A stretch of DNA of 64,000 bases from Salegentibacter salarius (GTDB lineage: Bacteria; Bacteroidota; Bacteroidia; Flavobacteriales; Flavobacteriaceae). Below the pieces are notes generated by a model, which saw only the letters and a program-made list of their open reading frames with translations, did no database searches and was not told where the DNA came from. This document shows, one piece after another, positions 2,919 to 11,837 of the stretch. Position 1 is the first letter of the stretch. Each line of letters begins with the position of its first letter. The DNA is taken from the NCBI RefSeq assembly GCF_900168265.1, contig NZ_FVZF01000008.1:1-64000 (forward strand), written 5' to 3'. The position numbers were made by a program, and so were the translations under genes.

Positions 2919-3158
2919 GTGAAACGAACTCTGGCCGACTTAAAACGTGGTGAACGCGGAATTATCAAAGAATTTTCAGAAGAAAATATTCCGCTAAAAT
3001 TACTCGAAATGGGTTGTTTGCCTGGCAATGAAGTGGAAATGTTACAAATGGCTCCTTTTAGAGATCCTATGTATTTAAACATTAACGGCAGCCACCTGGC
3101 CATTAGAAGAGAGATCGCTTTACTTATAGAAATTGACCTTATAAGCTTACATGGCTAA
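2919..3158 (+). CDS. feoA: FeoA, ferrous iron transport accessory protein
   Basis: A 79-residue SH3-like cytoplasmic protein with the typical FeoA pattern (LADLKRGERGIIKEF, LLEMGCLPGNEVEM, LAIRREIALLI). FeoA proteins bind or modulate FeoB. The start is GTG at 2919, placed properly after the -7 box. The 3' end overlaps the feoB start by 8 nt, so the two are translationally coupled. Length is normal for a free-standing FeoA. Confidence 0.93.
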   Translation: MKRTLADLKRGERGIIKEFSEENIPLKLLEMGCLPGNEVEMLQMAPFRDPMYLNINGSHLAIRREIALLIEIDLISLHG

Positions 3159-5253
3159 ACAAATAAATGTTGCGTTAATAGGAAATCCCAATACCGGTAA
3201 GACCTCTGTATTTAATCAGCTCACCGGTCTTAATCAAAAAGTGGGTAATTATCCCGGCATCACGGTTGAAAAAAAAGAAGGAATTTGTAAACTTCCGCGT
3301 GGCCTTAAAGCCCATATTTTAGACCTTCCGGGAACCTACAGCCTTAATGCCTCTTCTTTAGACGAAAACGTGGTAATAGAGTTATTGCTGAATAAAAGTG
3401 ACAAAGACTATCCAGATGTTGCGGTTGTAGTTAGCGATGTAGAAAACCTTAAACGAAACTTACTCCTTTTTACCCAAATTAAAGATCTTGGAATTCCTAC
3501 TATTCTGGTTATAAACATGGCCGACAGGATGGAGCGAAAAGGAATTTCACTGGATGTGGATTTGCTGGAAGAACGATTAAATACTAAAGTAGTTTTAGTA
3601 AGCGCCAGAAAAAATACCGGGATTGATGAGCTCAAAGAAGCGATAATCAATTACCGTCATATCTCAGACGAGCCTTGCGTAAATGCATCAGTTATTGCTC
3701 CTGAATATTTTGATCGCTTACGAAAAGCATTTCCGAAGCAATCACTTTATAAACTTTGGCTGGTAATTACTCAAGATGTAAACTTTGGTAATATCAATCG
3801 GAAAGAAATTACAAATTCCGATCATTTTGATACTAAATCTCATACCGAGCTAAAGAAACTTCAACATAAAGAAACCATTTTAAGATACCAGTTTATTAAC
3901 GGTGTTTTAAAGGAAACGATGAAGGTTGATGCAAGTTCTGCAAAAGACCTGCGTTCTCGTTTAGATCGGATTCTCACCCACAAAGTTTGGGGTTATACCA
4001 TATTTTTTGGTATTCTGTTATTGATTTTCCAGGCCATCTATAGTTGGTCCAGTTACCCAATGGACCTTATAGATGAGACTTTTGCATTTTTAAGCGAATG
4101 GACAAAAACTACTTTGCCGGCTGGAGCTTTTACCAATCTTATTGCTGAAGGTATTATTCCCGGACTGGGCGGTATTGTTATTTTTATACCCCAAATCGCT
4201 TTCCTGTTTTTCTTTATTTCTATCCTTGAAGAAACCGGCTATATGAGCCGGGTAGTATTTTTAATGGACCGAATAATGCGGAAATTCGGACTTAGCGGAA
4301 AAAGCGTCGTGCCCTTAGTATCAGGAACGGCTTGTGCAATTCCTGCTGTGATGGCCACGCGTAATATTGAAAGTTGGAAAGAGCGTTTAATCACCATTTT
4401 AGTGGTGCCATTTACAACTTGTTCAGCACGATTACCGGTTTACTTAATTATAATTGCGTTGGTAATTCCAGATCGAGCCGTGTGGGGTTTTAACCTCCAG
4501 GGATTGACCTTAATGCTACTGTATCTTTTAGGATTTGGTGTAGCTATTGGTTCTGCCTGGATTTTGAATTTAATTCTAAATATAAAAAACCGAAGTCATT
4601 TTGTAATTGAAATGCCCAATTACAAACTTCCAATGGGAAAAAACATTGCCATCAACGTGGTTGAAAAAACCAAATCTTTCGTGTTTGGAGCCGGAAAAAT
4701 AATTCTCGCAATTTCAATTATATTATGGGTTTTAGCCAGTTATGGGCCGGGAGATAATTTTAATAATGCCAGTGAAATTGTGAGCGAACAATACGATGAA
4801 CAAAGCAATATCACAGAAGACGAGCTTGACGAAGAAATTGCCTCATTCAAATTAAAAAATTCCTATATCGGGATTATGGGAAGAGGTATTGAGCCGGTTG
4901 TGGCGCCTTTGGGTTATGATTGGAAAATTGGAATTGCCATAATAAGTTCTTTTGCTGCTCGTGAAGTTTTTGTAGGAACTTTGGCAACAATCTATAGTGT
5001 AGGCAGCGACGAAGAAGAAACCATTAAAAACCGGATGGCCGCGGAGATCAATCCAATTTTGGGTGGCCCGCTATTTACTTTTGCCAGCGGGGTTAGCTTG
5101 TTGCTGTTCTACGCATTTGCTATGCAATGTATGAGTACTTTGGCTATTGTAAAAAAAGAAACCAATACCTGGAAATGGCCTGTTTTGCAGTTAGTGGTAA
5201 TGACCTTGTTCGCCTACTTTGTAGCATTAGCGGCTTTTCAATTATTGAAATAA
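3151..5253 (+). CDS. feoB: FeoB, ferrous iron transporter with G domain
   Basis: A 700-residue Fe2+ transporter of the inner membrane. The N-terminal GTPase domain shows G1 GNPNTGKTS (residues 11-19), G3 DLPG and G4 NMAD. It is followed by a helical regulatory region and two Gate domains with many membrane helices (SGTACAIPAVMATRN and the FAAREVFVGTLATIYS region). It forms an operon with feoA (8-nt overlap) and a small Cys-ended protein 35 nt downstream. FeoB is usually used under low oxygen or acidic conditions where Fe2+ persists. Confidence 0.97.
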   Translation: MAKQINVALIGNPNTGKTSVFNQLTGLNQKVGNYPGITVEKKEGICKLPRGLKAHILDLPGTYSLNASSLDENVVIELLLNKSDKDYPDVAVVVSDVENLKRNLLLFTQIKDLGIPTILVINMADRMERKGISLDVDLLEERLNTKVVLVSARKNTGIDELKEAIINYRHISDEPCVNASVIAPEYFDRLRKAFPKQSLYKLWLVITQDVNFGNINRKEITNSDHFDTKSHTELKKLQHKETILRYQFINGVLKETMKVDASSAKDLRSRLDRILTHKVWGYTIFFGILLLIFQAIYSWSSYPMDLIDETFAFLSEWTKTTLPAGAFTNLIAEGIIPGLGGIVIFIPQIAFLFFFISILEETGYMSRVVFLMDRIMRKFGLSGKSVVPLVSGTACAIPAVMATRNIESWKERLITILVVPFTTCSARLPVYLIIIALVIPDRAVWGFNLQGLTLMLLYLLGFGVAIGSAWILNLILNIKNRSHFVIEMPNYKLPMGKNIAINVVEKTKSFVFGAGKIILAISIILWVLASYGPGDNFNNASEIVSEQYDEQSNITEDELDEEIASFKLKNSYIGIMGRGIEPVVAPLGYDWKIGIAIISSFAAREVFVGTLATIYSVGSDEEETIKNRMAAEINPILGGPLFTFASGVSLLLFYAFAMQCMSTLAIVKKETNTWKWPVLQLVVMTLFAYFVALAAFQLLK

Positions 5254-5288: not shown

Positions 5289-5438
5289 ATGGAGTTAATA
5301 CAAGAAATTCTCGTTTTTATAACCTTCGCTATCGCGTTGGGATATATCCTGACAAAATTTATTTGGAAACCTGCTTTTCTAAAAAAGAAATCAGAAAAAA
5401 CTAAAGCCTGCGGAGTTTCAGGTTGTGGTTGCAGTTAA
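5289..5438 (+). CDS. FeoB-associated small Cys-rich membrane protein
   Basis: A 49-residue protein begins with a membrane helix (LIQEILVFITFAIALGYIL), continues with a basic stretch (KPAFLKKKSEK) and ends in a cysteine cluster (ACGVSGCGCS). This matches the small FeoB-associated Cys-rich proteins found after feoB in many bacteria, proposed to play a FeoC-like or iron-handling part. ATG at 5289, stop at 5436-5438. The stop overlaps the stop of the convergent toxin remnant. The last 36 nt of the gene are duplicated at 5988-6023, on the far side of the toxin-antitoxin segment. Confidence 0.8.
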   Translation: MELIQEILVFITFAIALGYILTKFIWKPAFLKKKSEKTKACGVSGCGCS

Positions 5439-5439
5439 T
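5404..5439 (+). repeat. direct repeat, left copy (3' end of the Feo-associated gene)
   Basis: A 36-nt stretch encoding ACGVSGCGCS-stop matches 5988-6023 at about 30 of 36 positions, including 17 identical bases in a row (GTTTCAGGTTGTGGTTG). The two copies bracket the toxin-antitoxin remnant. Confidence 0.8.
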
Positions 5440-5710
5440 CTCTTTTCGGAAAATATTTGTAAATTTCTTTTCGCTGCAAAAAACGAACAAGCAGAATTTC
5501 CTGTTCGGTCAACTTTTTTAACCCCCAATCTATAATCACCTATCCGATTTCGATAAAAATCTTTAAATCCTTTAAGCTTTTTAATCGGTTGTTGACTTAA
5601 ATTTTCGGCATTTTGAAGCTGTTCAATTATTTAAAAAGCTTTTCTTTAACTTTTTTATCAGTGATTTTTGCAGTGTCTTTTGCCAGGCTTTTACTGATTC
5701 TAACCTTCAT
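5435..5710 (-). pseudogene. RelE/ParE-type toxin, broken by two frameshifts
   Basis: From ATG at 5710 the minus strand reads MKVRISKSLAKDTAKITDK and then hits a stop within KEKLFK. Shifting frame restores IIEQLQNAENLSQQPIKKLK, FKDFYRNRIGDYRLGVKKVD. A second shift restores EQEILLVRFLQRKEIYKYFP-KRD-stop. Joined, this is a full-length RelE-superfamily mRNA interferase of about 85 residues with the usual basic YR.RIGDYRLG core and C-terminal RKEIYKYFP. The intact antitoxin lies just upstream with an 11-nt overlap. The toxin is therefore probably inactive unless the frameshifts are sequencing errors at A/T runs. Confidence 0.8.
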
Positions 5711-5906
5711 CTTTTAAAAGTGATTGTTTAAAATCTTCCAGGCCCATTTCTTCTTCATTCACTCCTTCTTCAATTGCTAATCCAAACGCAAATTCCTCTA
5801 ATTCGTTCGACTTTAAAAATTGAGTTTCGATACCAAGTTTATGGGCAAGTTTTACAAGCAACTTTAAATCTTCTTTTGATTCTCCTTTTAAAATTACTGA
5901 TTCCAT
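5700..5906 (-). CDS. antitoxin of a decayed type II toxin-antitoxin pair
   Basis: A 68-residue acidic protein (MESVILKGESKEDLKLLVKLAHKLG at the start, acidic tail GVNEEEMGLEDFKQSLLKDEG) of the small Bacteroidota antitoxins that precede RelE-type toxins. The N-terminal half is predicted to be strand-helix and the tail to wrap the toxin. Its end overlaps the toxin start, the usual arrangement. With the toxin frameshifted, the antitoxin may persist only as a relic or a cross-neutraliser. The exact family was not verified. Confidence 0.65.
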   Translation of the reverse strand: MESVILKGESKEDLKLLVKLAHKLGIETQFLKSNELEEFAFGLAIEEGVNEEEMGLEDFKQSLLKDEG

Positions 5907-5987
5907 AATAAATTTTTAATTACAAGATAAGAGATATTTCTCATTTGTAATAAATCTCTTAAATGATATAATTTGATTTTATGGGCT

Positions 5988-6023
5988 AAGCCTACGGTGT
6001 TTCAGGTTGTGGTTGTGACTAAT
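5988..6023 (+). repeat. direct repeat, right copy (relic of the Feo-associated gene tail)
   Basis: In the plus frame this reads AYGVSGCGCD-stop, a diverged copy of the ACGVSGCGCS tail at 5404-5439. No upstream coding sequence accompanies it: an in-frame stop precedes the conserved part. It overlaps the last codons of the convergent gene at 6019. It marks the right boundary of the segment holding the toxin-antitoxin pair. Confidence 0.75.
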
Positions 6024-6501
6024 TTTCCAATCTCTTCGTCACTTTCAACTTAAGCTGGTAATCTGAAGCTTCTATCTTCCTTGAAGTCTTTGGATACGGG
6101 GAAAGCGATAGGATTTCTATATCTAATTCTTTCTCAAAAAATTTAGCCAGGTTGGTTTTAAAGGAATTCACATTTGCTCCCAGGGTAATAATTTCTTTCC
6201 CTAAAGATTTTTCATCCTTAAATATTTCTACCAGAATTTTTGCCTCCCCTGCTCTCACACAGGTTACATCGCTAGGACATCTTGAATCTACCAACACTTC
6301 TTTAAATCGGATTATTCTTTCATTAAAATTAAAAGATTCTCCCAACTTAGTTTCCGCAAAATATGTTTCAATTTCAGCTTCATCTTGCGCTGATGCAGAA
6401 AAGGCAAAAAGAAAAAGACTGAGAACCAATAAAGCTGGTTTTAAAAAGTGAAAAACGCTGTTAGTGTAAGTCAATTTTATATTTCTTGGGTTTATTTGCA
6501 T
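6019..6501 (-). CDS. secreted protein of unknown function with SRCPSDVTCVRAGEA motif
   Basis: A 160-residue protein with an N-terminal signal sequence (LKPALLVLSLFLFAFSASAQ, cleavage probably after ASA) and a single periplasmic domain. The paired cysteines in DSRCPSDVTCVRAGEAKI form a recurring motif of small secreted Bacteroidota proteins, and a disulfide is likely. No enzyme motif is visible. It follows the right copy of the feo-tail repeat and runs in the same direction as the ZIP gene upstream (50 nt away), so it may share its transcript. No specific function can be assigned. Confidence 0.7.
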   Translation of the reverse strand: MQINPRNIKLTYTNSVFHFLKPALLVLSLFLFAFSASAQDEAEIETYFAETKLGESFNFNERIIRFKEVLVDSRCPSDVTCVRAGEAKILVEIFKDEKSLGKEIITLGANVNSFKTNLAKFFEKELDIEILSLSPYPKTSRKIEASDYQLKLKVTKRLEN

Positions 6502-6550: not shown

Positions 6551-7372
6551 TTAACCTAAGCCAACATCCAGGGTCATCATCACCATAAAACCTACAATAA
6601 AGCCCATAGTAGCAATATCGGTAAAATTCCCTTTTTGAGATTCCGGCACAACTTCTTCCACCACCACAAAGATCATCGCACCGGCAGCAAAAGAAAGTGC
6701 ATATGGCAAAATAGGTTCAAAAGTCATTACCGCCCAGGCACCAAGCACCGCAGCAAAAGGCTCTACAATAGCCGAAAGCTGACCAAAATTAAAACTTTTC
6801 CAACGGCTCATTCCCTGCCCTCGAAGCGGCATGGCAACCGCAAAACCTTCAGGAAAGTTTTGCAAACCAATTCCTATGGCAAGAGCCACAGCGCCACCAA
6901 TACTAGCCCCTTCCAGACCTGCACCCGCAGCACCAAAGAGCACGCCTACGGCTAAACCTTCAGGAATATTGTGCAGAGTAATAGCCAGGGTAAGTAGAAC
7001 AGATTTATGCCAGGGGGTTTTAATTCCTTCAGTCTCACTCATTTTAAAGTTTACGTGTAGGTGAGGCAGTACTTTATCAAGTCCGAATAGAAAAAGGGCT
7101 CCCAATCCAAATCCAACAAGCGGCGGAACTGTTTTTTCAAAACCTTCTCCGGGACTCATTTCTATCCCCGGCGCCAGTAAACTCCAAAAACTGGCAGCCA
7201 CCATAACTCCACCGGTAAACCCAAGCATCCCGTCAAATAATTTTCTATTCATCTTTTTAAATAGAAAAACCAGGGAAGCTCCAGCAGCGGTAAGTAACCA
7301 GGTGAAAATTGTAGCCAGTAATGCTGCCATTACCGGGTCTAATTGCTCAAAATAAGCGATTAATTCTTCCAT
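6551..7372 (-). CDS. ZIP family divalent metal transporter
   Basis: A 273-residue inner-membrane protein with about eight hydrophobic segments and the two ZIP metal-pore motifs: HNIPEGLAVGV and NFPEGFAVAMPL. Family members import Zn2+, Fe2+ or Mn2+. It follows the DtxR-type regulator with no gap (the regulator stop at 7373-7375 abuts this ATG at 7370-7372), so the pair is one transcript. Regulation by that protein is the simplest reading. The substrate cannot be fixed from sequence, but neighbouring iron genes and the regulator family favour iron or manganese, with zinc possible. Confidence 0.9.
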   Translation of the reverse strand: MEELIAYFEQLDPVMAALLATIFTWLLTAAGASLVFLFKKMNRKLFDGMLGFTGGVMVAASFWSLLAPGIEMSPGEGFEKTVPPLVGFGLGALFLFGLDKVLPHLHVNFKMSETEGIKTPWHKSVLLTLAITLHNIPEGLAVGVLFGAAGAGLEGASIGGAVALAIGIGLQNFPEGFAVAMPLRGQGMSRWKSFNFGQLSAIVEPFAAVLGAWAVMTFEPILPYALSFAAGAMIFVVVEEVVPESQKGNFTDIATMGFIVGFMVMMTLDVGLG

Positions 7373-8029
7373 CTATTGTATTTTTATATATAGATTATTT
7401 GATATTAGTTGTGAAATTCTTAATTCTCTTTCTTCTATTAGAATTAGCATAGATCCATCAAAGGCTTCCTTTTCAAGTACTTTAATTTCTTTCCCCAGGG
7501 AAATATTATTCTTGTCTAAAAACCTTAAAAATTCCGATGAAGAATCTTTTACGCCCACACAAATTCCCTTTTCTGCTTTCCCCAATTCAGAAAGCAGCAT
7601 TTTATTAGCTACACTAAAGTTTCCTTCTGCATCAGGAATAGGATCTCCGTGAGGATCACGTTTAGGAAAACCAAGAAATTTATCTAATTCCTGGGTAAGC
7701 TTTTCAGATTTAATATGTTCTAGTTGTTCGGCTATATCGTGTACTTCATCCCAATTAAAATTGAGCTTTTCTACCAGAAAATATTCCCACAACCGGTGTT
7801 TTCTAATTACCTGGATAGCGGTCTTGTCTCCTAATTCACTCAGTTTTACTCCCTGGTATTTCTTATAGATCACCAGTTCTTTTTCCGATAGTTTTTTAAT
7901 CATATCAGTAACCGAGGAAGCCTTGGTCTCCATTTCTTCCGCCAGTGCGTTGGTGCTCACACCAGCCTGGTATTTTCTTTCTAAATGAAAAATCGCTTTA
8001 AGATAATTTTCTTCTGAAAAACTAAACAT
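7373..8029 (-). CDS. DtxR/MntR-family metal-dependent repressor
   Basis: A 218-residue regulator. The N-terminal winged helix (SEENYLKAIFHL through SSVTDMIKKLSEKELV) is followed by the dimerisation and metal-binding domain (HRLWEYFLVEKLNFNWDEVHDIAEQLEHI), and the C-terminal part contains an SH3/FeoA-like domain (GVKDSSSEFLRFLDKNNISLGKEIKV). It is divergent from the TonB receptor gene, with an inverted repeat at 8139-8154 overlapping that gene's promoter. Its own leader carries the hairpin element at 8042-8092. Expected role: metal-loaded repressor of the linked ZIP and receptor genes. Confidence 0.9.
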   Translation of the reverse strand: MFSFSEENYLKAIFHLERKYQAGVSTNALAEEMETKASSVTDMIKKLSEKELVIYKKYQGVKLSELGDKTAIQVIRKHRLWEYFLVEKLNFNWDEVHDIAEQLEHIKSEKLTQELDKFLGFPKRDPHGDPIPDAEGNFSVANKMLLSELGKAEKGICVGVKDSSSEFLRFLDKNNISLGKEIKVLEKEAFDGSMLILIEERELRISQLISNNLYIKIQ

Positions 8030-8185: not shown

Positions 8186-10456
8186 ATGAAAACATTAGCA
8201 ATAATATTCTTGACACTAATCAGTTTTTCTGGGTTTGCCCAAAAGGGGAAACTGTCGGGAAAAATAACTTCAGAAGGCAGTACTGTGGCTTTTGCAAATG
8301 TCTATATCAAAGCTTCAGACCTTGGTACTACTGCAGATAAAGACGGTAAATTCCTATTGAAAAATATTCCGGCAGGAAATCATCGTATTGAGATTAGCGC
8401 TATTGGTTTTAAAAAGTTTAGCCGTGATATTCTTATAAATTCCGGGCAAAGCAAAACGCTTAATATTGAACTGGAGAAATCTTCTGAAGAACTTAATGAG
8501 GTTTTGATTGTAGATACACAAACCGGGCTTACCCGCCGCACGCCTTATAATGTCTCCAGCATAGATATGCAGGGGATTGAAACAAAAGGAAACCCTAACG
8601 GGATGATGGGAAGTTTACGGGAAGTTCCTGGTGTTTATGGAGCAGAATTCGGCCAGGGTATCGTAAAACCTTTTATCCGCGGGCTCGGTTTCTCCAGGGT
8701 GGTTACTATTTACCAGGGCAATAAACTGGAAAATCACCAATGGGGCGCAGATCACGGCCTGGGAATTAATGATCTTGGCATTAAAAAAGTAGAAGTTATT
8801 AAAGGTCCTGCTTCAGTTTTATATGGTTCCGGTGCTTTGGGCGGCGTTCTACTTACCCAGGATGACGAATTTTACAAAGAATCCACTAAGTTTTCCGGAA
8901 ATATTGGTACTACTTTTAATAGCGTTTCCACCGGAATTCGCACCTATGCTTCTCTAGGTAAATCTTTTGAAAATGGGATTTTTATAGCTACCGATCTTGC
9001 TTATGAAAATCACGCCGATTATAAAAACGGTAATGGTAGATTAATTGGAAACAGCCGATTCAATACGAAGACATTAAGGCTCCATACCGGAATTGAAAAA
9101 GAAAACTTTCAGAATAAATTATCATTTTCCTTTAACGACCAGAACTTAGGAATTATCCTGGATGAAGAAATGGAGGATTCAAAAAGCCTCGCCACTAGCC
9201 GAAACGACAGGGATATGCAATTGCCGTTTCAGGAAGTAAAAGATTATTTGCTTTCTTATAACCAAACCACGCAACACGAGAATTTTGAGACCTCTTTGCA
9301 CCTTTCACACCACTCAAATAATAGAAAGGAAGTGGAGCAGGATTTCGATCTTGTAGATTTGGGATTGCAGCAAAACCATAGCTTCTACAATGCAAGAATA
9401 ACTTTCCCTAACGGAAAAATAAAGCATAGTTTAGGAACCCAGGGAAGTTTTGTAAAAACCCAGAATATTAAAAATTCGCAGGAATTTCTAATTCCTGATG
9501 CCGAAATCTTTGAAAACGGAATTTACTACCTGGCCAGTTTAGATATTGACAGTTGGTTTTTTCAGGGAGCTCTTCGTTATGATTACAGGAATGTTACCGC
9601 GGATGCCAGTTCAGAAGAATTGATTGCAGACGACTTTATTCTACCTGGGAATCCTGAAAATCGAAAACTCACCAGAACCTTTAACGGTTTTACCGGTTCA
9701 ATTGGTGCCACTAAAAAATTCAATGCCAAAAATCAACTAAAGTTTAATTTCTCCACTGGTTTTAGAGCTCCAGATCTGGCTGAATTATTCTCTAACGGTC
9801 CACATCCCGGCACCAGCCGATTTGAAAAAGGGAACGATCAATTTGGGAGAGAACAAAGTTTACAGGCAGATTTAAGTTATACTTACCGAAACAACAGGTT
9901 TGAAAGTACTTTTTCAGCATTTGGTAGCCGGGTAAACAATTATATTTATTTCACCGCTACCGATGAAACATTACCAAATGAAAACCTTGAAGTATGGTCT
10001 TACCTCCAAACCGATGCTAACTTATACGGATTTGAATTTGAGCTAAAACATACCTGGCTTGATCAACAACGCCTGGAAACAAAATTTTCAGGAGCTATTG
10101 TAAGGGCAGAAGATCTTAAAAACGATAGAAACTTAAGTTTTATTCCACCAGATAATTTTAACCTGGAAGTTGGCTATTTTGGTTTAAAAGATAGATCGCT
10201 CTATGCTTTCTCAAAATTAAGATTGGTAAGCGACCAAAACAGGGCCGGTCTCAACGAGGAAACTACAGCCGGTTATACTTTGCTTAATTTGGGAGTAAGT
10301 AAGAAATTTAATTTAGGAAACGATCAGCTGGAAACAGGAATTACGGTTTATAACGCCTTAAATAAAAACTATGTAGACCATATGTCAATTTTAAGGGCGT
10401 TTAACGTGAGTAGCCCCGGCAGGAATTTTATGCTGAATTTGAAATATAATTTCTAA
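8186..10456 (+). CDS. TonB-dependent outer-membrane receptor, probably for a metal
   Basis: A 756-residue receptor: signal peptide (residues 1-18, ending GFAQ), a carboxypeptidase-regulatory-like repeat (about 20-95), the plug domain (about 110-225, with VPGVYGAEFGQGIVKPFIRG and IKKVEVIKGPASVLYGSGA), and a 22-strand barrel ending in the aromatic LNLKYNF. The plug contains NHQWGADHGLG, a His-rich patch similar to zinc/metal receptors rather than the SusC type, and no SusD partner follows. Divergence from the DtxR-type gene and an operator-like repeat at its promoter support metal uptake. Zinc, iron complexes or another metal cannot be told apart here. Confidence 0.88.
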   Translation: MKTLAIIFLTLISFSGFAQKGKLSGKITSEGSTVAFANVYIKASDLGTTADKDGKFLLKNIPAGNHRIEISAIGFKKFSRDILINSGQSKTLNIELEKSSEELNEVLIVDTQTGLTRRTPYNVSSIDMQGIETKGNPNGMMGSLREVPGVYGAEFGQGIVKPFIRGLGFSRVVTIYQGNKLENHQWGADHGLGINDLGIKKVEVIKGPASVLYGSGALGGVLLTQDDEFYKESTKFSGNIGTTFNSVSTGIRTYASLGKSFENGIFIATDLAYENHADYKNGNGRLIGNSRFNTKTLRLHTGIEKENFQNKLSFSFNDQNLGIILDEEMEDSKSLATSRNDRDMQLPFQEVKDYLLSYNQTTQHENFETSLHLSHHSNNRKEVEQDFDLVDLGLQQNHSFYNARITFPNGKIKHSLGTQGSFVKTQNIKNSQEFLIPDAEIFENGIYYLASLDIDSWFFQGALRYDYRNVTADASSEELIADDFILPGNPENRKLTRTFNGFTGSIGATKKFNAKNQLKFNFSTGFRAPDLAELFSNGPHPGTSRFEKGNDQFGREQSLQADLSYTYRNNRFESTFSAFGSRVNNYIYFTATDETLPNENLEVWSYLQTDANLYGFEFELKHTWLDQQRLETKFSGAIVRAEDLKNDRNLSFIPPDNFNLEVGYFGLKDRSLYAFSKLRLVSDQNRAGLNEETTAGYTLLNLGVSKKFNLGNDQLETGITVYNALNKNYVDHMSILRAFNVSSPGRNFMLNLKYNF

Positions 10457-11193
10457 AGTCCGCGTTCCTTTTGAATTTGGTCGTAGGCTTCCTGAACTTT
10501 ATTGAATTTTTCGCGAGCTCCTTTTCTATAAGCTTCGTCCATATGGCCTAATTTATCGGGATGATATTTTTTAACCATATTTCTGTATGCTTTTTTCACC
10601 TCAGCATCTGTAGCCGATTTTTCAATTTCAAGGATTTTATAAGCATTATCGGCAGATTTAAAGAACATAGCCTTTAAGCTTTCAAAATCCATTCGGCCAA
10701 TCCTAAGATAGCCGGCAATTTCCTGGATTACGCGAGCTTCAGCTTCACTAACGCGACCATCGGCTTGCGCTATTCCAAAGAGAAAGTGAATTATTTGTAA
10801 ACGTGCAGGATACTTTGTTCTGGCAGCCAAATATTGTGAAATTCTCGAAGCTGAAATTTCACGATTTTTAATTAGTTCATTAAACGTTCTAAATGTTGCA
10901 TTAGCGCGTTCTTTCCCATAAGCCTGCACAAAATAGGAGCGTACATAATCCATTTCAGACTGTGAAACCTGGCCATCGGCTTTAATCACCAGGGAACATA
11001 GCGAAAGTAAATTCAGCTCAAAATCACCGGGAGAAACTTTCTGCTCTTCCTGCTGCTGTCCAAACATTTGTTTGAACGCACCGCCACTACCACGAGTCCA
11101 GTTATCTATAAGCGTTCCTATTATAAAACCTAAAATGGCTCCGGGAAACCGGAAATACATATAGCCTATTACAGCGGCAATCCATTTAAACAT
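10453..11193 (-). CDS. DjlA-like protein: membrane anchor, TerB and J domains
   Basis: A 246-residue membrane co-chaperone. A short N-terminal membrane hairpin (WIAAVIGYMYFRFPGAILGFIIG) is followed by a TerB-like helical domain (about residues 50-160) with two acidic DGQVS/DGRVS loops, and a C-terminal J domain (about 175-245) with the HPDK signature that stimulates DnaK. The architecture is that of DjlA. Its 3' end overlaps the receptor gene's stop by 4 nt on the opposite strand. Confidence 0.87.
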   Translation of the reverse strand: MFKWIAAVIGYMYFRFPGAILGFIIGTLIDNWTRGSGGAFKQMFGQQQEEQKVSPGDFELNLLSLCSLVIKADGQVSQSEMDYVRSYFVQAYGKERANATFRTFNELIKNREISASRISQYLAARTKYPARLQIIHFLFGIAQADGRVSEAEARVIQEIAGYLRIGRMDFESLKAMFFKSADNAYKILEIEKSATDAEVKKAYRNMVKKYHPDKLGHMDEAYRKGAREKFNKVQEAYDQIQKERGL

Positions 11194-11215
11194 GAAGAAA
11201 ATTTTAAATAAGCGG

Positions 11216-11223
11216 CAAAGATA
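11216..11223 (-). promoter_or_regulatory. -7 promoter box of the DjlA-like gene
   Basis: TATCTTTG on the minus strand, a perfect TAnnTTTG, 22 nt before the ATG. Confidence 0.6.
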
Positions 11224-11392
11224 CTATTTTACTCATTAAATGAGATTTAAAACCCCCAAAGCCTTCGCCCCAAAATTTTGTTAGCTTGAGTCGTGAATTT
11301 CGACCAAATATTTAATTAAGTTCATCGATTTAACCTATTCGCACATAATTAATTGGAATATGGGCAGCTGAAGTTAATTTGGTATCTTTGTT

Positions 11393-11400
11393 ACTTACTA
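11393..11400 (+). promoter_or_regulatory. -7 promoter box of the bacilliredoxin gene
   Basis: TATCTTTG, a perfect TAnnTTTG, 26 nt before the ATG at 11427. Confidence 0.6.
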
Positions 11401-11426
11401 AAGTTTAATACAAAAAAACAAAATAT

Positions 11427-11837
11427 ATGTATCCAGCAGATTTAGTAAAACCTATGCGTGAAGACCTTACCAGCATTGGTTTTGAAGAATTACACACTGT
11501 AGAAGATGTAGAGAACGCAATGAAGAAAGAAGGAACTACCCTGGTAGTTGTAAATTCGGTTTGTGGATGTGCTGCCGCTAATGCAAGACCAGGCGCCAGA
11601 ATCTCTTTACAGAATGCAAAAAAACCAGATAATTTAGTAACTGTTTTCGCAGGGGTTGACAAAGAAGCTACAGATAAAGCTCGTAGCCTAATGGTACCTT
11701 TCCCTCCATCTTCGCCTTCTATGGCACTTTTTAAAGATGGTGAATTAGTACATATGCTAGAGCGTCACCACATTGAAGGCCGCCCGGCTGAAATGATTGC
11801 TGAAAACCTTACCGGAGCTTATAACGAGTTCTGTTAA
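11427..11837 (+). CDS. bacilliredoxin, BrxA/BrxB (YphP/YqiW) family
   Basis: A 136-residue thioredoxin-fold protein with the family's CGC active site in NSVCGCAAANARPG (residues about 48-52). Bacilliredoxins remove bacillithiol from S-bacillithiolated proteins in the cytoplasm. Homologues are common in Bacteroidota, where bacillithiol is reported in some lineages. It is a single gene: its own promoter box upstream and a long hairpin with a T-run (11861-11990) downstream. Length is normal. Confidence 0.93.
   Translation: MYPADLVKPMREDLTSIGFEELHTVEDVENAMKKEGTTLVVVNSVCGCAAANARPGARISLQNAKKPDNLVTVFAGVDKEATDKARSLMVPFPPSSPSMALFKDGELVHMLERHHIEGRPAEMIAENLTGAYNEFC

Follow-up and report, generated by a model that had tools for sequence, protein, structure and literature searches.

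How does a toxin-antitoxin (TA) module with no room for a recombinase gene come to lie exactly between the end of a chromosomal gene and a second copy of that end? The question is raised by the feo locus of Salegentibacter salarius (Flavobacteriaceae), which was analyzed within a window of 64,000 nucleotides (positions 1 to 64,000 of contig NZ_FVZF01000008.1, assembly GCF_900168265.1). The genome of the window is referred to as G000; G004 and G006 are two other Salegentibacter genomes that carry the same insert. The relevant features of the window are the following:

2919..3158, plus strand: feoA, 79 aa (Pfam FeoA, E 8.6e-19)
3151..5253, plus strand: feoB, 700 aa (ORF), used as a flank in the divergence comparison
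5289..5438, plus strand: gene of the FeoB-associated Cys-rich small membrane protein, 49 aa (ORF; PF12669, FeoB_associated)
5404..5439, plus strand: left copy of the 36-nt tail, ending with the stop codon of the intact gene and one T
5440..5987, no strand assigned: insert proper, 548 bp, with ends identical in G004 and G006
5438..5710, minus strand: remnant of a ParE/RelE-type toxin gene with two frameshifts
5700..5906, minus strand: intact antitoxin, 68 aa (ORF), no Pfam family above the cut-off
5907..5987, minus strand: stretch upstream of the antitoxin
5988..6023, plus strand: right, orphan copy of the tail, running straight into native downstream DNA
6019..6501, minus strand: 160-aa protein (ORF), the native downstream neighbor
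6551..7372, minus strand: 273-aa membrane protein (ORF), a further comparison flank

The match of the 49-aa product to PF12669 (E 1.8e-4) is under the gathering cut-off. The 80 FeoB relatives that were kept share 75-98% identity across their best segment, and the closest named one is that of S. agarivorans (98%). The 160-aa protein matched no family in Pfam and NCBIfam searches; its gene (6019-6501) is fast-evolving, with 66-79% nucleotide identity among the carriers. The 273-aa membrane protein is presumably a ZIP-type metal transporter, and an ORF at 2-304, also the start of the contig, resembles what we take to be the end of a transposase.

The two tails (5404-5439 and 5988-6023) form a direct repeat identical at 30 of 36 positions and, in its 28-nt core, at 26 of 28. 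Since the next best match to the 36-mer on either strand of the 64-kb window reaches only 21/36, the repeat is not due to chance. The left copy closes an intact gene (ORF 5289-5438), and no gene body precedes the right copy. The duplicated target at the feo gene is 36 bp long. An earlier, sequence-only reading of the locus had described a 36-nt repeat with about six differences, corresponding to the 3′ end of a 49-residue gene that is whole on the left and orphaned on the right. None of the ten inverted pairs listed links both ends of the insert; unlike an insertion sequence or transposon, the unit thus shows no terminal inverted repeats among these pairs, and its duplication is 36 bp rather than short.

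The two tails of a carrier are identical at 35/36 positions in G006, 30/36 in the window and 26/36 in G004. The G006 value implies that the duplication began as a near-identical one and that most of the six differences in the window arose after insertion or were brought in by a transferred unit. The differences had been taken as the mark of an old event or of a related donor. That proposal has to be recast, given the G006 tails and an insert that is younger in these species than its flanks.

In G006 the toxin gene is whole, and its 91-aa product belongs to PF05016 (ParE_toxin, E 3.7e-10, above the cut-off). The toxin region of the window (5438-5710, minus strand) aligns to this homologue with in-frame stops and has two single-base gaps relative to both other carriers; therefore, the two frameshifts that had been read in a RelE-type toxin gene next to an intact antitoxin gene are indeed in the assembly. 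In G004 the toxin gene has one in-frame stop. The toxin has been lost through different mutations in two carriers, the window and G004; it would have decayed after arrival, the antitoxin being retained. As in a type II TA operon, the antitoxin gene of the G006 locus (L084, 1654-1869) lies directly upstream of the toxin gene (1850-2125) and overlaps it. In the window, the toxin stop would share the sequence TTAA (5435-5438) with the stop of the host gene, the two genes being convergent and overlapping by four bases; the toxin and the host gene occupy 1851-2126 and 2123-2272 in the G004 locus (L083), and in L084 the host gene ends at 2122.

The largest ORF within the insert is that of the 68-aa antitoxin, which leaves no room for an integrase or a transposase. 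Searches of the antitoxin against Pfam, NCBIfam and PADLOC gave nothing above the cut-off, and the sole promoter-like match upstream of it on the minus strand (6005-5976) was not above chance. Homologues of the antitoxin were found in 4 of 15 genomes of the genus (E < 1e-4) and in 2 of 397 genomes of the family, both Salegentibacter; a profile retrieved 2 of 336 genomes of the order, that of the window and the distant G669, at whose antitoxin locus no repeat was found. No antitoxin was detected on plasmids and none was confirmed in viral contigs, and the single plasmid match of the toxin (43%) is from Chryseobacterium.

Fifteen Salegentibacter genomes were searched with the locus and with the insert. 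The whole insert is present at the same site, with the same ends, in three of them, each of a different species (G000, G004 and G006). A single tail without the insert is present in eight genomes (G001, G007, G008, G005, G011, G009, G002 and G012), of which the first six were also aligned. These single-tail sites are empty sites, as expected from the earlier suggestion of an insertion at the 3′ end of a gene that rebuilds the gene end, and no empty-site genome with both tails was met among the eight. G003 and G010 matched in feoB only and were left out of the tail count, and G013 (61% complete) gave no match to the locus. A remnant is found in G014 (L092, G014:C103), whose contig shares its synteny with the window: feoA and feoB are missing at this place, where DNA of the antitoxin is kept along with the native genes downstream. 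The tail remnant at this place is weak (22/36, with the next best match in the locus at 18), and its position weighs equally; a divergent feoB (77% identity) is located elsewhere in G014.

Divergence of the insert was compared with that of its flanks in the pairs G000-G004, G000-G006 and G004-G006, given in this order throughout. The insert is 95.1, 94.5 and 93.4% identical, feoB 90.5, 82.1 and 81.9%, the body of the small gene 88.7, 84.3 and 83.5%, and the next downstream gene 79.4, 66.3 and 67.2%. The dS values are 0.107, 0.137 and 0.202 for the antitoxin; 0.548, 1.686 and 1.75 for feoB; 0.989, 1.147 and 1.428 for the small-gene body; and 0.504, 0.729 and 0.757 for the downstream membrane-protein gene. 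With about 40 synonymous sites in the antitoxin and three carriers, the synonymous counts of the antitoxin and feoB differ with Fisher p values of 1.2e-4, 1.6e-11 and 1.5e-9. Judged by these distances, the insert is younger in the carrier species than the DNA around it. Since its dS is far below that of feoB, exchange between species with little or no flanking DNA would be the simplest account.

We regard it as probable that the locus records a selfish type II TA module whose insertion duplicates the target and which later re-inserts at the same tail. The module would enter just past the stop codon of the FeoB-associated gene, and the last ~36 bp of the target would be duplicated, so that the host gene stays whole and an orphan tail is left on the far side. 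At its first insertion the module may have been joined to the gene tail in a staggered or one-sided manner. Thereafter a unit made of the TA genes and one tail (about 584 bp) would move between cells and re-enter at the same tail, most likely by tail-to-tail recombination, with the direct repeats supplying the homology: either a circle would form between the repeats, or imported DNA would cross over in or near them. A homology of 36 bp is short for RecA, which counts against this route. Addiction perhaps helps the unit to spread and keeps it in place; later the toxin would decay, the antitoxin would persist and the unit could be lost by recombination between the tails. The data show directly the single-tail empty sites, the nearly identical repeat in G006, the shared ends of the insert in three species, its low divergence relative to the flanking genes and the different toxin mutations in two carriers; the recombination step and the movement between cells are what we infer.

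Comparable arrangements were found at three other ParE-type loci of Flavobacteriaceae, each with a host gene, a TA module facing its end and an orphan tail (host genes are named from protein sequences and the names are our assumption):

L300 (G170), 9261-11597: aldehyde dehydrogenase gene, orphan tail of 163 nt, 90% identical
L328 (G107), 8536-10494: acyl-CoA dehydrogenase gene with a RelE/ParE-type module, orphan tail of about 46 nt, 87% identical
L111 (G359), 1060-2250: VOC-type gene, orphan of about 130 nt over a 200-nt span

The L111 orphan is a copy of the 3′ part of the host gene with an internal deletion. Among relatives of L300, a single tail was seen in 14 of 14 loci returned (of 39 other matching genomes), and in L368, L373 and L374 the DNA after the single gene end matches the DNA after the L300 orphan tail. 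In L369 (G754) a toxin-like relic (2901-2997; 98 nt, 75%) directly follows the aldehyde dehydrogenase gene, with no second tail, and given this relic the same gene end may have been used twice. Relatives of L328 have a single tail in 5 of 5 loci, one more 14-nt match having been set aside.

To place the feo case among other loci of its kind, 170 feo loci (80 + 30 + 60, in which species may overlap) were scanned for tails; G000 and G006 are among the set of 30. The scan covered repeats 150-3000 nt apart with a score of at least 17, and some loci extended for less than 1.5 kb downstream. It misses the 26/36 repeat of G004, and its silence elsewhere thus leaves room for old, diverged tails. A separate look for the best 36-mer downstream covered 79 of 80 loci, the remaining one being without a recognizable small gene. 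The only other tail-bracketed insert at the feo small gene was in L070, an uncultured Algibacter contig, where an exact 24-nt repeat (7248-7271 and 7534-7557) surrounds an unrelated 262-nt insert in which no TA module was recognized; it contains what reads as a fragment of a membrane-protein gene. Matches in L033, L074, L158 and L189 were judged by eye to be tandem or dispersed repeats. The idea of a hotspot at the feo tail was abandoned, two independent tail-bracketed inserts in 170 loci being too few for a preference. Applied to 20 syntenic stretches from seven Salegentibacter genomes, about 397 kb in all, the same scan found the G006 feo case alone and missed that of G004, whose repeat is more diverged.

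One alternative is that a site-specific recombinase uses the tail as its att core, the insert being a minimal, non-autonomous integrative cassette on which an integrase from another locus acts in trans. Phages and integrative and conjugative elements integrate at gene 3′ ends, e14 at icd being an example, and the feo unit resembles such elements in that the gene end is rebuilt by the incoming element and an orphan tail is left. The same site and the same insert ends in three species, as well as the unrelated L070 insert with its 24-nt tail repeat at the same gene, would also be accounted for. However, the unit, at 584 bp in total, has no ORF longer than 68 aa and no integrase, and no larger element between tails was seen in the 170 feo loci (for repeats up to 3 kb apart, diverged ones being missed). 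In addition, the duplications at the other TA loci (about 46, 163 and ~130-200 nt) vary in a way that the core of one enzyme would not. We therefore hold the att-core account to be rather unlikely.

Ordinary homologous recombination could also have carried the insert together with flanking arms that were later hidden by recombination or divergence. This would need no new mechanism; the flanks are 82-90% alike, which permits recombination, and the carriers are scattered, not forming one clade in the best trees of the penicillin-binding protein, feoB and the downstream membrane-protein gene. The change in identity, however, falls near the repeats, and for pairs with G006 it is sharp on both sides: in 100-nt windows, the DNA adjoining the insert is 75-86% identical on either side, versus 91-99% inside. 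The dS of the small-gene body, which is near or above 1 in each pair, also argues against arms. The right side is softer for G000-G004, where identity in the downstream gene is 89-92% in its near part and 60-71% in its far part, and where single feoB windows reach 97%; limited co-transfer is thus possible on that side for that pair. As an explanation of the locus as a whole, transfer with arms seems unlikely to us.

A single old insertion with vertical descent, several precise tail-tail losses and strong selection on the insert is very improbable. Well-supported branches force only 1, 2 and 1 changes in the penicillin-binding-protein, feoB and membrane-protein trees, so the trees alone are compatible with one origin followed by losses. 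In the penicillin-binding-protein tree, G014 with its remnant clusters with species that have the empty site, and a crossover between the direct repeats would leave a perfect empty site behind. What speaks against vertical descent is that the antitoxin dS is 5-12 times below the feoB dS and that the toxin region, broken in both G000 and G004, is 95% identical between them despite a feoB dS of 0.55. Finally, the small gene could have been duplicated in tandem and the body of its second copy then replaced, which the sequence-only reading had offered as its other option. The outcome would likewise be one complete gene plus an orphan tail, but this course is barely credible, since no second repeat of the small-gene body was found in the repeat search around the insert and tail scans of relatives, 170 feo loci in all, show no tandem copies among repeats 150-3000 nt apart, a range in which diverged ones can escape the scan.

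The closest known pattern is "insertion with long target duplication", reportedly described by Nobusato et al. (2000), as cited in later papers. Excerpts of three papers report this kind of insertion for restriction-modification genes (PMC1643837, PMC3031569, PMC3874152), and a parallel between the mobility of restriction-modification and TA genes is already drawn in excerpts of two (PMC2654758, PMC3031569). The feo module agrees with the restriction-modification cases in that the insert is absent in relatives, the target is present in one copy when empty and in two when filled, the insert has no transposase or integrase, and the cargo is of the post-segregational-killing type. It differs in that the cargo is a TA module, the duplication of 36 bp covers a gene end and three species share the unit, little diverged, at one site. 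Duplications of the restriction-modification type are described as long, with variable lengths around 100 bp; those at the TA loci are 36, about 46, 163 and ~130-200 bp.

In excerpts of a 2020 review (PMC7167474), ccdO157-type chromosomal TA modules are described as lying alone between core genes and decaying, and the way in which chromosomal TA modules move and integrate is called unresolved. As far as those excerpts go, the feo module is similar in being small, without a mobile element, patchy among relatives and inactivated in its toxin in some lineages, and unlike in its target duplication and its low divergence relative to the flanks, which bear on the route of arrival. No description of TA modules with target duplication at a gene tail was recognized among the literature titles and abstract beginnings searched. 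The TA parts are ordinary, and their mode of insertion has a reported counterpart in restriction-modification genes. A single feo locus presents a filled site, empty sites, a target duplication, apparent exchange between species with little or no flank, toxin losses that arose independently and a late remnant; together with the three further genes of the same anatomy, it links TA modules to the insertion pattern of restriction-modification genes.

It is conceivable, and we propose it tentatively, that small type II TA modules in general are mobile units without a recombinase of their own, which insert facing the 3′ ends of host genes, duplicate the tail and spread between species by re-insertion at the same tail. 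If true, this would give chromosomal TA modules a concrete route of arrival. Repeat brackets with a score of at least 22 were found at 18 of 80 ParE loci, chosen from among the matches listed, versus 54 of 2221 intervals placed at random in these stretches. Further ParE loci, taken with 1.5 kb of flank and without a control, were bracketed in 8 of 30 cases (score of at least 18), and 14 homologues in 4 cases, versus 4 of 1500 random centers in feo loci. Only two of the 18 brackets, L300 and L328, are clear gene tails (L111 comes from the 14 homologues), so the enrichment of brackets is no proof of tail insertion. In a gene-end test, 4 of 86 TA-adjacent ends scored versus 5 of 731 others (p 0.01); without two cassette-like cases the counts were 2/86 versus 5/731 (p 0.16, not significant). 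Tail-bracketed modules are thus a minority of TA loci, 2 of the 80 surveyed plus 1 of the 14 homologues.

Many of the remaining ParE brackets look like cassette-type or dispersed repeats. Integron-type cassette arrays carry TA cassettes, and the ParE modules of L257, L274, L280, L298, L331, L341 and L346 lie between repeats that, in our estimation, resemble the sites of such arrays; the feo repeat differs from integron cassettes in being the tail of a host gene. The repeat at L107 recurs elsewhere in G107. At L328 a second TA module lies directly behind the first, and at L109 there are two consecutive TA modules, the first of which is located between ~118-nt repeats about 818 nt apart.
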